This document shows positions 41,212 through 47,185 of a stretch of DNA of 64,000 nt, in pieces (within the stretch, counting starts at the first letter, position 1; each line of letters starts with the position of its first letter). The notes under the pieces were generated by a model. It was not told where the DNA came from, ran no database searches, and saw only the letters and a list, made by a program, of their open reading frames with translations. The position numbers and the translations under genes were made by a program. The DNA comes from SAR202 cluster bacterium bin87. GTDB taxonomy: Bacteria; Chloroflexota; Dehalococcoidia; Lucifugimonadales; UBA3495. The stretch is taken from contig MPNC01000001.1 of the NCBI GenBank assembly GCA_002238825.1, positions 1-64,000 of the forward strand, in the 5' to 3' direction.

Positions 41212-42483
41212 TTATGCGCTGGTTACCTTCACTGGCAGGCTCTCCACCGCACGGAAGGTGAGCACGTGGTCGTACTCGACCTGCTCCACCGGGATTTCCA
41301 GTTCGACGTTTTCGAACCGGTTGGCCAGGTTGCGGAAGATTTCCTGTCCTTCGAGGCGGGCCAGCGTGGCACCCAGGCAGTGATGGACACCGCTGCCGAA
41401 GGCGACGTGCTGGTTCGGGTAGCGTTCGATGTCGAAGTCATCGGCGCGGTCGAACACCTTGGGGTCGCGGTTGGCGCCAGGAATGAACCAGCGGACCCGG
41501 TCGTTCTTCTTGATCAGCTGGCCGTTCATCTCGATGTCATCCGTGGCGATGCGCTGGATGGACCGCACCGGCGAGTCGTACCGGAGGGCTTCCTCGGTGG
41601 CTCGGACGGTCTTCCCTTCGGGATCGGACTTCAGAATGGCCCACTGTTCCGGGTGCTGCGTGAATGCCAGCGTCCCGTTGCAGATCAGGTTGATGGTGGT
41701 CTCGTGGCCGGCCGACAGCAACAGCATGATGTTGTTGATAGTCATGTCACGGCTGAACACACCCTGACGCTCACCCTCGCAGACCACGGACATCAGGTCG
41801 GTGGCGTCGAAATTCTCGGGGCTGGAGATACGATCCTCGACCATCGGCGCGATGAAGTCCTGCAGATTCTGCACCGCCTGGGTGAGCGGCTTCATCCGGT
41901 CCGGGCCTTCGCGATTGAGGAAGCGCAGGTCCTTGGCCAGCTCGCGAAGGCGTTCCCGCTCGCTGTCCGGAATGCCGAGCATACGGGCGATGACCAGCAG
42001 GGGCAGCGGCGTGGCCAGATCGGCCATCACGTCCATGCGCCCCTTTTCTTCCACGGCGTCCAGCAGCTCGTCAATGGCTGACTGCACCAGGGGCCGCCAC
42101 ATTTCGATGGACTTGGGCGTGAAGTAGCCATGCATCACCCGACGCATGTCAACATGGTCGGAGCCGGTTACGTCGGGGTTGTACCGGCGCTGGTCGTGCT
42201 GGATGAACCGGGAGACCTGCCACTTCTTGATGAAGTTGTAGAGCTCGAGGTCGTCTTCATCAATGGGCGGGTTGGGCGCGCGCGTGTCCCGCGCGTACAC
42301 GCTGGACGAGAACGCCTCGGGATGCCGGGTAACCCATACCAGATGTTCCCACGAGGTGATCATCCACACCTCGAACTGCTCGTTGTAATACACCGGTTGG
42401 TGGTCTCGCAGCCGGTTGTAGAAGTCATACGGCTTGTAGATCGCTTCCGGCGAAAACGGATTATCGTTAAAGGTGGTTACCAT
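41212..42483 (-). CDS. Cytochrome P450 (array member 2)
   Basis: This 423-residue P450 has heme loop FGSGVHHCLGATLARLEGQ, I-helix LLLSAGHETTINLI, and ExxR in TEEALRYDSPVRSIQR. It is closely similar to member 3 throughout (for example DHVDMRRVMHGYFTPKS, MDVMADLATPLPLLVIARMLGIPDS), so the two are recent duplicates. ATG 42483 was chosen because GGAGG lies nine bases upstream and because members 3 and 4 start with the same TxNxNxFSPE pattern. The longer frame would add 62 residues with no P450 character. Confidence 0.95.
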   Translation of the reverse strand: MVTTFNDNPFSPEAIYKPYDFYNRLRDHQPVYYNEQFEVWMITSWEHLVWVTRHPEAFSSSVYARDTRAPNPPIDEDDLELYNFIKKWQVSRFIQHDQRRYNPDVTGSDHVDMRRVMHGYFTPKSIEMWRPLVQSAIDELLDAVEEKGRMDVMADLATPLPLLVIARMLGIPDSERERLRELAKDLRFLNREGPDRMKPLTQAVQNLQDFIAPMVEDRISSPENFDATDLMSVVCEGERQGVFSRDMTINNIMLLLSAGHETTINLICNGTLAFTQHPEQWAILKSDPEGKTVRATEEALRYDSPVRSIQRIATDDIEMNGQLIKKNDRVRWFIPGANRDPKVFDRADDFDIERYPNQHVAFGSGVHHCLGATLARLEGQEIFRNLANRFENVELEIPVEQVEYDHVLTFRAVESLPVKVTSA

Positions 42484-42552
42484 TGGTGTACCTCCGGTGG
42501 TACGTTGAAACGGCCACGGACCGGAAAGACCGCAACCCCGCTTGATTGCCCG

Positions 42553-42558
42553 ATTATA
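42553..42558 (-). promoter_or_regulatory. -10 box (TATAAT) of P450 member 2
   Basis: A perfect TATAAT on the minus strand lies about 70 bases before the start codon, so this gene can be transcribed separately from member 3. Confidence 0.45.
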
Positions 42559-42633
42559 ACCGATATTCGCACCGATTGCAGTCGCGCGCGCATCGTTTCG
42601 TCTTCTGGCAGTCGGCGTGTCCCCACTAATGTG

Positions 42634-42670
42634 AGTGCGCCGGGGTGGGTTTAACCCACCCCGGCGCACT
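42634..42670. terminator. Strong 18-bp hairpin between P450 members 2 and 3
   Basis: AGTGCGCCGGGGTGGGTT, one base, then its exact complement. It lies 27 bases past the stop of member 3 (minus strand). No T-run follows, but a stem this long should stop or insulate transcription. Confidence 0.65.
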
Positions 42671-42697
42671 ACATCGCCCCGGGGCGGTGTTGCCCTA

Positions 42698-43957
42698 TCA
42701 GGCGTTGGTCACTTTGACCGGCAGGCTCTCCAGAGCCCGCAGACCGATCAACTGGTCGTATTCCAGCGTTTCAGTCGGCACCTCAAGCTCCAGGCTTTCG
42801 AACCGGTTGGCCAGGTTCCGGAAGATCTCCTGCCCTTCCAGGCGCGCCAGGGTGGCCCCGAGGCAGTGGTGGATGCCGCTGCCGAAGGCGACGTGCATAT
42901 TGGGATAGCGTTCCACGTCGAAATCGTCCGCCCGGTCGAACACCTTGGGGTCGCGGTTGGCTCCGGAAATGAACCAGCGTACCCGGTCGTTCTTCCTGAT
43001 CTGCTGACCGTTCAGATCGATGTCCTCCATGGCGATGCGTTGGATGGATTTCACCGGCGAGTCGTAGCGCAGCGCCTCTTCCGTCGCGCGCACGGTCTTG
43101 CCCTCGGGGTCCGACTTCAGGGTAGCCCACTGGTCCGGGTGCTGCGTGAACGCCAGCGTGCCATTGCAGATCAGGTTGATGGTGGTCTCGTGCCCCGCCG
43201 ACAGCAGGAGCATCACGTTGTTCACCACCATGTCGCGGTCGAAGATGCCCCGGCGCGCACCCTCCGCGACGACCGAGATCAGGTCGTCCCTGGGGTTGTC
43301 GATGCGCTCGTCGACCAACGGGCCCAGGTAGTCCTGCAGATTCTGGACCGATTCGGACAGCGGACCCATCCGGTCCGGCCCGGTCCGGTTCAGGTGGCGG
43401 AGGTCCTTGGCCAGCCGGCGCATGATGGGCCGGTCGCTGTCCGGGATGCCCAGCATCCGGGCGATGACGAGCAGGGGCAGCGGCGTCGCCAGGTCCGCCA
43501 TTACATCCATGCGGCCCTTTTCCTGCACCACGTCCAGCAGTTCGTCGATAGCCGACTGCACCAGCGGCCGCCACATCTCCATGGACTTGGGGGTGAAGTA
43601 GCCGTGCATCACCCTGCGCATGTCCACATGGTCGGGTCCGCTGATCTCAGTATTGTAACGGCGCTGATCGTGCTGAATGAACCGGGAGACCTGCCACTTC
43701 TTGATGTAGTTGTAGATCTCCATGTCGTCTTCGTCAATCGGCGGGTTTGGCGGTCGGACATCCCGGGCGAACACACTGGACGAGAAGACCTCCGGATGCC
43801 GGGTCACCCATACCAGGTGCTCCCAGTCGGTTACCATCCAGACTTCGTACTCCTCGTTGTAGTGTACCGGCTCCCACTCGCGCAGCCGCGCGAAGAATTC
43901 GTAGGGTTGGTACATCGCTTCCAGAGAGAATGGGTTGTCGTTGATCGTGCTAACCAT
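42698..43957 (-). CDS. Cytochrome P450 (array member 3)
   Basis: This 419-residue P450 has heme loop FGSGIHHCLGATLARLEGQ, I-helix LLLSAGHETTINLI, and ExxR in TEEALRYDSPVKSIQR. It is a near neighbour in sequence of member 2. Variation is concentrated in the F-G region (RPIMRRLAKDLRHLNRTGPDRMGPL) and the late PTETLEYDQLIGLRAL, regions that often set substrate choice in P450s. GGAGG precedes ATG 43957, and a TATAAT lies at 44035-44030 on the minus strand. A 14-base palindrome sits between promoter and start. Confidence 0.95.
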   Translation of the reverse strand: MVSTINDNPFSLEAMYQPYEFFARLREWEPVHYNEEYEVWMVTDWEHLVWVTRHPEVFSSSVFARDVRPPNPPIDEDDMEIYNYIKKWQVSRFIQHDQRRYNTEISGPDHVDMRRVMHGYFTPKSMEMWRPLVQSAIDELLDVVQEKGRMDVMADLATPLPLLVIARMLGIPDSDRPIMRRLAKDLRHLNRTGPDRMGPLSESVQNLQDYLGPLVDERIDNPRDDLISVVAEGARRGIFDRDMVVNNVMLLLSAGHETTINLICNGTLAFTQHPDQWATLKSDPEGKTVRATEEALRYDSPVKSIQRIAMEDIDLNGQQIRKNDRVRWFISGANRDPKVFDRADDFDVERYPNMHVAFGSGIHHCLGATLARLEGQEIFRNLANRFESLELEVPTETLEYDQLIGLRALESLPVKVTNA

Positions 43958-44003
43958 TTTCTGCGACCTCCGGTGTGCGACACGCAATTTGACGACGAAA
44001 TGC

Positions 44004-44017
44004 GCAGCATATGCTGC
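44004..44017. promoter_or_regulatory. Palindromic operator candidate for P450 member 3
   Basis: GCAGCATATGCTGC is a perfect 14-base palindrome located just downstream of the minus-strand TATAAT (44035-44030) and upstream of the start codon, where a repressor would block transcription. No regulator gene is nearby. Confidence 0.35.
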
Positions 44018-44068
44018 AATGATGCACCGATTATATTCTTGGCGCGTTGTACGCGCAAGCGATAAACG

Positions 44069-44100
44069 ACGAGGCCCGGCGAATGTTCGCCGGGCCTCGT
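44069..44100 (-). terminator. Terminator of P450 member 4
   Basis: A 15-bp perfect stem (ACGAGGCCCGGCGAA and its complement, two-base centre) begins 27 bases after the stop of the minus-strand gene and is followed on that strand by CGTTTATC. Confidence 0.7.
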
Positions 44101-44126
44101 AACCCTCGGGGTATTTTGCGAACCGG

Positions 44127-45413
44127 TTACGACAGGCTCACCGGGAGGGTCTCCAGCGTCCGGAACGTGATGCTGGAGGTGTAGCTCAGGTCGTCGGGGC
44201 TGCAGTTCATGTTCAGGTTCGGGAACCTATCGGCCAGTGCCTTGAACGCTTCCTGCCCTTCCAGCCGCGCCAGGGTGGCGCCCAGGCAGTGGTGGATGCC
44301 GGAGCCGAAGGCCACGTGGGGGTTCGGGTACCGCTCGACGTCGAAGTCGTCGGGGCGGTCGAACACCTCAGGGTCGCGGTTGGCGGAGGTGACGAACCAG
44401 CGCATCCGCTCGTCCTTCTGGATGAGCTTGCCGCCCAGCTCGACGTCCTCACCGGCGATGCGGGTGATGGACTTGACCGGCGGGTCGTACCGCAGACACT
44501 CTTCGGTGGCGCGGATCATCTTGCCAGCCGGGTCGGTCTTGAACAGTTCCCACTGATCCGGGTGTTCCATGAACGCCCGGGTGCCGTTGCAGATCAGGTT
44601 GATGGTGGTCTCGTGACCGGCCAGCAGCAGCAGGATGGCGTTGGCCACCACCTGCTCCTCATCCATGATCCGCTTGCCGGCCGCGTTGGTGGTGCGGGCG
44701 GCATCGGTCATCTTGTCCAGCAGGTCGCCGTTGGGGTTGTCCAGGCGGGCCTTGACCATGGGCCGCAGGTAGTCCTGCAACTCGGTGATGCCCTCGGACA
44801 GAGGCTGCATGCGGTCGGCGTTGCCCCGGCCGATGAACAGCAGCTTCTCGGCCAGCGAGCGAATGAACTGCCGGTCGTAGGTCTCGATGCCCATCATGGC
44901 CGCGATGACCAGCAGAGGCAGCGGGGTGGCGTAGTCGCGCATCACGTCCATGCTGCCGCGCTCTTCCGCCTCGTCCAGCAACTGCTTGATGGCCGACTGA
45001 ACCAGCGGGCGCCAGAGTTCCATGGCCTTCGGCGTGAAGTAGCCGTGGATGACTTTGCGCATGTCGGTATGGTCCGGCCCGCCGTGCTCGCGGATTTCTT
45101 CATGCGTGCTCACCGCGCGCCGGTCGGTCTGGATGAACCATTGGCTGAAGAAATTCCGCACGTCCTCATAGAGGCCCATGTCGGACTCGTCGATCGAGGG
45201 ATACGGAGGCAGCGGGTCGCGGGTGAACACCTCGGACGAGAACGCCTCGGGCCGCCGGGTAACCCAGACCAAGTCCTTGTACTTGGTGATGACCCACAGC
45301 TTGTAGGGGTCGTTCCAGTGAACCGGGTCTTCCTCGCGCATCCGTCCAAAGTACGTATACGGGTCCTGGATCACCTCAGGGGAAAACAGGTTTTCGTTAA
45401 AGGTGGTAACCAT
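44127..45413 (-). CDS. Cytochrome P450 (array member 4)
   Basis: This 428-residue P450 has heme loop FGSGIHHCLGATLARLEGQ, I-helix LLLAGHETTINLICNG, and ExxR in TEECLRYDPPVKSITR. It shares the array's N-terminal pattern (FNENLFSPEVIQDPYTYFGRMREEDPVHW) but differs in the middle (DRRAVSTHEEIREHGGPDH, DNPNGDLLDKMTDAARTTNAAGKRI), so it is an older duplicate than members 2 and 3. GGGAGGG precedes ATG. It has the clearest promoter of the array. The substrate is unknown. Confidence 0.95.
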   Translation of the reverse strand: MVTTFNENLFSPEVIQDPYTYFGRMREEDPVHWNDPYKLWVITKYKDLVWVTRRPEAFSSEVFTRDPLPPYPSIDESDMGLYEDVRNFFSQWFIQTDRRAVSTHEEIREHGGPDHTDMRKVIHGYFTPKAMELWRPLVQSAIKQLLDEAEERGSMDVMRDYATPLPLLVIAAMMGIETYDRQFIRSLAEKLLFIGRGNADRMQPLSEGITELQDYLRPMVKARLDNPNGDLLDKMTDAARTTNAAGKRIMDEEQVVANAILLLLAGHETTINLICNGTRAFMEHPDQWELFKTDPAGKMIRATEECLRYDPPVKSITRIAGEDVELGGKLIQKDERMRWFVTSANRDPEVFDRPDDFDVERYPNPHVAFGSGIHHCLGATLARLEGQEAFKALADRFPNLNMNCSPDDLSYTSSITFRTLETLPVSLS

Positions 45414-45525: not shown

Positions 45526-45822
45526 TTACGATTCGCGCATAGTACCGCTGCGTTAGCATCGCCGTAACGAATGCCGCCGCAGTGAATGCAGCAGATTCAC
45601 GCCGGCGTGGGGCTGCCCGGGTCGACATGGACGAACACCGGCAGCCGCGGTAACCGATGAGACGCCGAGGTCGTCGGGCAGTGACTGTCGGGCCGTATCT
45701 TCGCGATCGACGTTCCGCTTGCCCAGCTTCAGCCTGTCTGTGCTACAATCCGCCAAAACATCCGGCGATCCCCGGCCAACTGCCTGGGCCCGTCGGCAAA
45801 CCCATGATTGGGAGGTGCCACA
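45526..45822 (+). other. Divergent upstream region of the DsbA-like selenoprotein gene
   Basis: This is the remainder of a 409-base gene-free gap between P450 member 4 and the DsbA-like gene. A TACAAT at 45744-45749 with a TTGCCC 19 bases upstream is a possible plus-strand promoter. Nothing else was recognised. Confidence 0.35.
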
Positions 45823-46455
45823 ATGGCCGAATCCGATTTCACCGTTTATTACGACTTTCGTTGACCCTTCGTGTACAACGCTGCCATGTGGTGGGCGAAA
45901 GTACGCGAGAATACCGACCACGCAATCGACGTGGATCTGAAGCCGTTCTCGCTGGTTCAGGTAAATCACGACAACAACAATGACGACGGGTTCAAGTTCT
46001 GGGAGCAGGACGATTCGGACAACGCGCTGCTCGAGTTGCGCGCCGGTATCGCTGCCCAGCGCCAGGGCCAAGAGATCTTCGATCGCTTCTTCATCAACCT
46101 GCTGAGGGCCCGGCACGAAGATCGCATCGACCTGACCGACGCGGACGCCATCAACGCCGTGGCCGAGGCCTCCGGGGTTGACATGGGCCAGTTCGCCGAG
46201 GATCTGGCCGATCCCGATGTGATGCGCGAGATCGGCGAGAGCCACACCGAGGCCGTGGAAGTCCATGGCGCTTTCGGTGTGCCGCTCTACGTCTTCCCCA
46301 ACGGGAACTCCGCCTTCGTCAAGATGTTTATCCCGTCGGATGACGAATCCGGCCCCATCTACGACAACCTGGTCGAGATGATGGCGGACCACAGGCACGT
46401 CGGCGAGGTCAAGCGGCCGTCACCGCCATGGCCCTATGAGGGTGTGCGCGGATAA
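45823..46455 (+). CDS. DsbA-fold thioredoxin-like selenoprotein, Sec at codon 14 (in-frame UGA)
   Basis: From ATG 45823, which has GGGAGG seven bases upstream, the frame encodes AESDFTVYYDFR, then UGA (45862-45864), then PFVYNAAMWWAKVREN and on to a normal stop at 46455, 210 residues in all. In DsbA/FrnE/2-hydroxychromene-isomerase-like proteins the strand 'YxDFxCPxxY' carries the redox cysteine, and here UGA stands exactly at that Cys. The downstream half keeps the fold: the helical insert, then GAFGVPLYVFPNG (the cis-Pro-like VP loop). The second Cys of CxxC is Val (U-P-F-V), so it is a mono-selenol type. The only later start, GTG 45871, has no ribosome binding site and would lose strand 1 and the active site. 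Read as selenocysteine. A sequencing error or a broken gene is the alternative. A SECIS hairpin was not resolved by eye. Confidence 0.8.
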
Positions 46456-46471
46456 CGCCGCTCGACACCAA

Positions 46472-47185
46472 ATGAGTTCGCCCGGCGCACATCGCCCGGC
46501 TGCCGAACTGGAACAAGCCCTGGGCCTGAGCTTTCGGGACCGGGGCTTGCTCATTCAGGCGCTGACGCACCGTTCGTACGTCAACGAGACCGGTGGCTCC
46601 GACACCGATTCCTATGAAAGGCTCGAGTTCCTTGGCGATGTCGTCGTTCGCCTCATCGTCAGCGAGGAACTGTTTCGCCGTCTGCCCGAATGTGACGAGG
46701 GCGGTCTGACCCGACGCTGGACCACTCTGCTCAGCCAGCGCGCGCTCGCCGCCGCCGCCAGGGATCTGGGCCTGGCTGAGTACATCCTCCTGGGCCGAGG
46801 TTTCGAAGCATCCGGGGGACGAAGCGGCGACGCTGTACTGGGCGACGTGATGGAATCCGTGATCGCCGCGATCTACCTGGACCAGGGAAACACGGCGGCT
46901 TGCGATTTCGTCCTGAGGGCTCTCGAAGCGTCCCTCGACGCGGCCTGTCGGCCCGACTGGCGCCCCGACAACCCCAAGGCGGAACTCCAGGAACTGCTGC
47001 AAGGCCAGGGCAAGCCCACCCCCGGCTACCGCGTCGTGGCATCTTCCGGGCCATCGCATCAGCCCAGCTTCGAAGTCGAGGTTGCGACCGGAGAGCAGGT
47101 TCTCGGTTCTGGAGCCGGCTCCAGCAAGAGCGCGGCCGAAGTCGCCGCCGCCCGGGCCGCCCTGGCAGCGCTGTCTGAGGGTTGA
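46472..47185 (+). CDS. rnc: Ribonuclease III
   Basis: This double-strand-specific endoribonuclease processes rRNA precursors. The protein has 237 residues. The signature is YERLEFLGDVVVRLIVSE (family ERLEFLGDAVL) with catalytic Glu and Asp, and the second acidic pair lies in LGDVMESVIAAIYLDQG. The C-terminal dsRNA-binding domain is PKAELQELLQGQGKPTPGYRVV ... FEVEVATGEQVLGSGAGSSKSAAEVAAARAALAAL. It begins 17 bases after the selenoprotein gene. ATG 46472 was chosen at the start of homology. ATG 46436 would overlap the upstream gene. Confidence 0.95.
   Translation: MSSPGAHRPAAELEQALGLSFRDRGLLIQALTHRSYVNETGGSDTDSYERLEFLGDVVVRLIVSEELFRRLPECDEGGLTRRWTTLLSQRALAAAARDLGLAEYILLGRGFEASGGRSGDAVLGDVMESVIAAIYLDQGNTAACDFVLRALEASLDAACRPDWRPDNPKAELQELLQGQGKPTPGYRVVASSGPSHQPSFEVEVATGEQVLGSGAGSSKSAAEVAAARAALAALSEG

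Follow-up and report, generated by a model that had tools for sequence, protein, structure and literature searches.

DsbA-like selenoproteins have already been tabulated in the literature. The 2008 GOS survey lists, under the name 'DsbA 3', a group with the Pfam domain PF01323 and the motif UxxV, comprising 5 selenoproteins and 72 Cys homologues (PMC2398784 Table 2), and a 2026 review table contains a 'DsbA-like protein form 2' with the motif DxxUP, represented by MDP6049977.1 (PMC13188914). Also relevant for comparison are DR2335 of Deinococcus radiodurans (PDB 7dk9, 7dka), for which no function was reported (PMC8945050); Rv2466c, a mycothiol-dependent nitroreductase (PF22234); and the thioredoxin-like (seleno)lipoprotein Rcas_1661 (NF041057), a Chloroflexota (seleno)protein of related fold.

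The window analysed here is a stretch of 64,000 nucleotides from SAR202 cluster bacterium bin87 (contig MPNC01000001.1, positions 1 to 64,000). We consider it very probable that a gene on its plus strand, at 45823 to 46455, encodes a cytoplasmic DsbA-fold selenoprotein in which UGA at codon 14 is recoded to selenocysteine (Sec), and which acts as a mono-selenol oxidoreductase. The likeness to 'DsbA 3' lies in PF01323, the UxxV motif and the marine source, while the earlier entry is based on five reads, without genome, context or structure (PMC2398784); the two are likely to be the same family, matched by domain and motif description only. Form 2 of the review, again compared by description, shares PF01323 and D-x-x-U-P (D-F-R-U-P here), but MDP6049977.1 is annotated as a member of the crotonase/enoyl-CoA hydratase family (PMC13188914). 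With both entries in the literature, the UxxV configuration is not new. The preliminary description's view of a mono-selenol arrangement foreign to ordinary DsbA therefore holds in part: with Val at the partner position and without any further conserved Cys, the mono-selenol label is right, but UxxV had been tabulated before. Our literature search found no earlier report of a UxxV DsbA selenoprotein for this lineage, and what is new here is the order-wide ancestry proposed for Sec, the conservation of a candidate hairpin, the pairing with rnc and about four apparent losses of Sec to Cys. A crotonase fusion, considered because of the name of the review's record, was rejected, since in most homologues the open frame extends upstream for only 13 to 90 codons; long upstream frames occur in a few (L055, L064). 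Membership of NF041057 was likewise rejected, the window protein being unmatched at E 0.001 or better and the best homologue reaching 30.7 bits where the cut-off is 190. Across NCBIfam the window protein has no match at E up to 1.

The gene opens at ATG 45823, preceded by a Shine-Dalgarno-like GGGAGG (45810 to 45815; homologues mostly have a purine-rich GGAG at the equivalent site), and runs through 13 codons, the TGA (45862 to 45864), 196 sense codons and a TAA (46453 to 46455). This gives 210 residues including Sec14, which lies in the motif D-F-R-U-P-F-V. The codon for Val17, GTG at 45871 to 45873, is at once the UxxV partner position and a false start: the mechanical ORF list offers a 194-residue remnant from this GTG and nothing longer, just as had been predicted of an automatic caller. 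Taken by itself, the window sequence is within chance, with 18 open frames that contain exactly one TGA plus 150 or more further codons, against 17 with one TAA and 10 with one TAG, and the case consequently rests on comparison. Those of the other TGA-joined frames in the window that bear domains are two adjacent ordinary genes or ordinary single-domain proteins, so that no second selenoprotein was found in the window by that route. In a comparison of six close relatives, pN/pS falls from 0.95 over the 13 codons preceding the ATG to 0.21 over codons 1 to 13 and 0.0 over codons 15 to 30, and is 0.07 to 0.13 further on. Judged by these ratios, codons 1 to 13 are under purifying selection, and the low values on both sides of the TGA argue that both are translated as one protein. 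The proposal that GGGAGG-ATG, 13 codons, UGA and 196 codons form a single gene is thus borne out by sequence and by comparison with homologues.

A search of the genomes of the same order found a homologue in 101 of 147. Across the 98 homologous genes extracted, the aligned codon 14 is TGA in 90 and TGT or TGC in 8; there is exactly one TGA per gene in the 90, at this codon, with identity down to about 32%, and the +3 partner position is Val except for Ala in five genes. As comparative data, 90 TGA codons at one aligned site with Cys in the other 8 are far beyond chance. The alignment also settles that relatives do have Cys at codon 14, and it upholds the placing of the UGA at the family's Cys site, where the exchange is only with TGT or TGC. 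The relatives found in a separate, named collection belong to SAR202 cluster bacteria, Dehalococcoidia and other Chloroflexota assemblies, some of them from sponges or deep water to judge by isolate name; of 76 parsed, 73 have TGA and 3 have Cys, many of the genomes being shared with the 147-genome set. Outside the order, Sec forms (L199, L201) and Cys forms both exist, and their partner residue is V, A or T. Other Chloroflexota carry separate DsbA-like selenoproteins with U-P-W-C (L215-L218) or U-P-W-A (L214). No relatives were found in viral contigs, and plasmid records yielded only distant DsbA-family proteins from Deinococcus and Cupriavidus.

All four components of the selenium machinery that the preliminary description proposed looking for are present in the organism's own genome: SelB, SelA and SelD score above their profile cut-offs (352.7, 544.5 and 373.1 bits, respectively), and there is a tRNA-Sec with anticodon TCA. 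The selD gene (L197, C42:681408-682328) has one in-frame TGA, which implies that the selenophosphate synthetase is itself a selenoprotein in this genome. The presence of this machinery is no proof that the UGA at codon 14 is read efficiently. Throughout the order, 132 of 147 genomes have a SelB above the profile cut-off. Two near-complete genomes without both SelA and SelB (G028, G058) have the Cys form; these are small SAR202-type genomes of 1.3-1.4 Mb in which the gene has switched to Cys. The TGA form occurs without a full SelB in three genomes (G110, G120, G131), all of them fragmented; SelA is present in G120 and G131, and a fragment of SelB in G110. Since SelB persists in five genomes with the Cys form, loss of the machinery does not by itself account for the exchange between Sec and Cys.

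Just 3' of the TGA lies a predicted SECIS-like hairpin (45868 to 45909, plus strand; −18.4 kcal/mol), with a lower stem of 45868-45876 paired to 45901-45909, an upper stem of 45879-45885 paired to 45890-45897 with one bulged G, and the apical loop AUGU at 45886-45889; Sec homologues have an equivalent apical stem-loop. The window's 48-nt hairpin, at this energy, has a z of −2.76 (2 of 200 shuffles as low), and a longer 71-nt stretch has a z of −0.92. Most Sec forms have CAGCC-GUGU-GGCUG, 19-32 nt downstream of the first TGA base. All five stem positions are paired in 67% of 95 unique Sec sequences versus none of 8 Cys sequences, a count that leaves out the window's genus because its Trp24 codon alters the stem. 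Sliding the partner by 1-3 bases reduces full pairing to 6% or less, and when 3' arms were swapped among sequences, none of 1000 trials reached the observed 67% (mean 58%). Synonymous-codon shuffles, which keep the protein unchanged and ignore shared descent, give a mean z of −2.2 for Sec forms and −0.4 for Cys forms. Within the genus of the window, the apical hairpin of 21 nt is by itself no stronger than synonymous shuffles (z about 0.1); here the support for the candidate hairpin is the longer 48-nt stem together with the other genera. A search of the TGA region against Rfam returned nothing meaningful. The proposed check for a SECIS element thus produced a bacterial-type candidate hairpin at the right distance, one that is lost in Cys forms.

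These data bear on what the TGA is. It might be a genuine stop or the mark of a decayed gene, leaving a pseudogene or a shorter gene from GTG 45871, as the ORF caller's 194-residue frame and the chance frequency of single-TGA frames in the window would allow. Set against this are TGA at the identical codon in 90 genes across dozens of genera, with frames otherwise intact, the exchange with Cys codons only, the strong selection on codons 1 to 13, and the ribosome site that most homologues have at the upstream ATG. We regard this reading as already contradicted by the sequence comparison, and as very improbable. We give still less credence, indeed next to none, to the idea that the UGA is read as an amino acid other than Sec, be it Trp or the product of readthrough by a near-cognate tRNA. 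The inserted residue is not deducible from sequence alone, but the only other codons at this site, which is that of the catalytic Cys, are TGT and TGC; the genome encodes SelA, SelB, a Sec-type SelD and tRNA-Sec; at other sites, such as the end of rnc, UGA serves as an ordinary stop; and the hairpin is lost in Cys forms. We therefore infer incorporation of Sec at codon 14: SelB and tRNA-Sec would recode the UGA, with the hairpin just downstream as the guide.

The protein matches PF01323 over residues 8-168 (59.1 bits, cut-off 25.6, E 6.6e-16). This domain matches 52 of 52 homologues, and PF22234 weakly matches 36 of 52. An AlphaFold2 model (pLDDT 91.3) has a thioredoxin fold with a helical insertion, and its best structure matches are of the DsbA family. 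The top hit is DR2335 (Z 22.8 over 195 residues, 27% identity), which shares the fold over almost the full length and a C-terminal 'rRP.P' motif; its single Cys stands at the Sec position and the resolving Cys is absent from both proteins, the difference being Cys for Sec and CPYA versus UPFV. Rv2466c follows at Z 17-18, alike in fold but with CPWC where the window protein has UPFV and no resolving Cys, and YjbH, kappa GST and HCCA isomerase lie at 14-16. The label DsbA/FrnE-like, given from the sequence, was apt as regards the DsbA-like fold, but the nearest relatives are of the single-Cys DR2335 type, neither FrnE nor canonical DsbA. Invariant in the family are, among others, D11, U/C14, P15, F151, G152, P154 and K167, together with the C-terminal KRPQPPWP motif. 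Pro154 (46282 to 46284, plus strand), in the conserved F-G-[VT]-P motif, is presumably a cis-proline that faces Sec14. The homologues have no conserved Cys other than that at position 14, and the CXXC pair of canonical DsbA is not present, its place being taken by UxxV or CxxV. The N-terminus, MAESDFTVYYDFR, shows no hydrophobic signal peptide of the kind that canonical, periplasmic DsbA carries, and Sec already stands at residue 14.

Fold and motif point to a redox activity for the predicted protein. In the model, Sec14 would sit at the start of helix 1 of the thioredoxin-type fold, opposite the presumed cis-Pro154, and its selenolate would reduce a peroxide, a disulfide or a mixed disulfide, passing through a selenenic acid or a selenenylsulfide. 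With Val at the partner position and no second conserved Cys, an internal bond of the disulfide type found in DsbA is impossible, and an external thiol must reset the enzyme by acting on Sec14. A mono-selenol oxidoreductase in the cytoplasm, with an external thiol as resolver, is thus the most likely description. The missing internal resolving Cys would also suit a relay of two proteins in which the Cys for Sec14 is supplied by a partner such as thioredoxin or a dedicated protein, and the organism's own genome, where a profile search did not find BshC and found MshC only below its cut-off (324 bits against 485), is in keeping with such a relay. The only conserved neighbours, however, are rnc and, further on, ftsY, neither of which is a redox partner, and we rate the relay as a serious but minority possibility. 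Kappa GST and 2-hydroxychromene-2-carboxylate (HCCA) isomerase, like the window protein, have no CXXC. An enzyme of that non-redox kind, with Sec14 as nucleophile or thiol binder, would share the fold (Z 15.5 for kappa GST, 14.7 to 14.8 for HCCA isomerase), but these scores fall well below those of DR2335 and Rv2466c, and Sec at a Cys site normally signifies redox chemistry; we think this alternative improbable.

The gene's end overlaps rnc (46436 to 47185, plus strand), whose RNase III product matches the Pfam RNase III and dsrm domains. Of the 98 loci, 92 have rnc immediately downstream in the same orientation, frequently with an overlap or a gap of no more than 30 bases, and 36 have ftsY after it; beside the homologues outside the order no rnc was found. 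Across nearly the whole order the selenoprotein gene would share a transcript with rnc, and the pairing may be simple co-transcription. That it reflects a functional link, in which the protein would for instance protect RNA processing or place it under redox control, or that a new Sec-dependent chemistry explains the Sec ancestry, seems to us a long shot. Upstream of the selenoprotein gene, on the minus strand at 41212-45413, stand three tandem cytochrome P450-like genes with similar N-termini, of which Pfam was applied to the nearest one only.

In a tree of 108 proteins, the order's sequences and one from another order of the class form a clade of 98 that is mostly Sec. Cys forms arise in this clade in about four places (twice in f29, once each in f9 and f35), with some long-branch joins uncertain, and the Cys-form genomes within it are all of 1.2-1.5 Mb. 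On this tree, the ancestral state in the order is Sec, which has been lost to Cys about four times. One pair of adjacent UxxV gene copies, both with TGA (L083 and L084), suggests by its position in the tree an old duplication.

Both the deep ocean and sponges harbour SAR202-type Chloroflexota in abundance, and roughly two in three of the genomes sampled from the order have the protein. Gene callers that take UGA as a stop drop its first 16 residues, active site included, so that in databases it likely resembles an inactive DsbA remnant. Where the earlier UxxV entry comprised 5 reads (PMC2398784), a well-populated family is now available, whose naturally occurring Sec and Cys forms would make it possible to test what advantage Sec confers when no resolving Cys is present.
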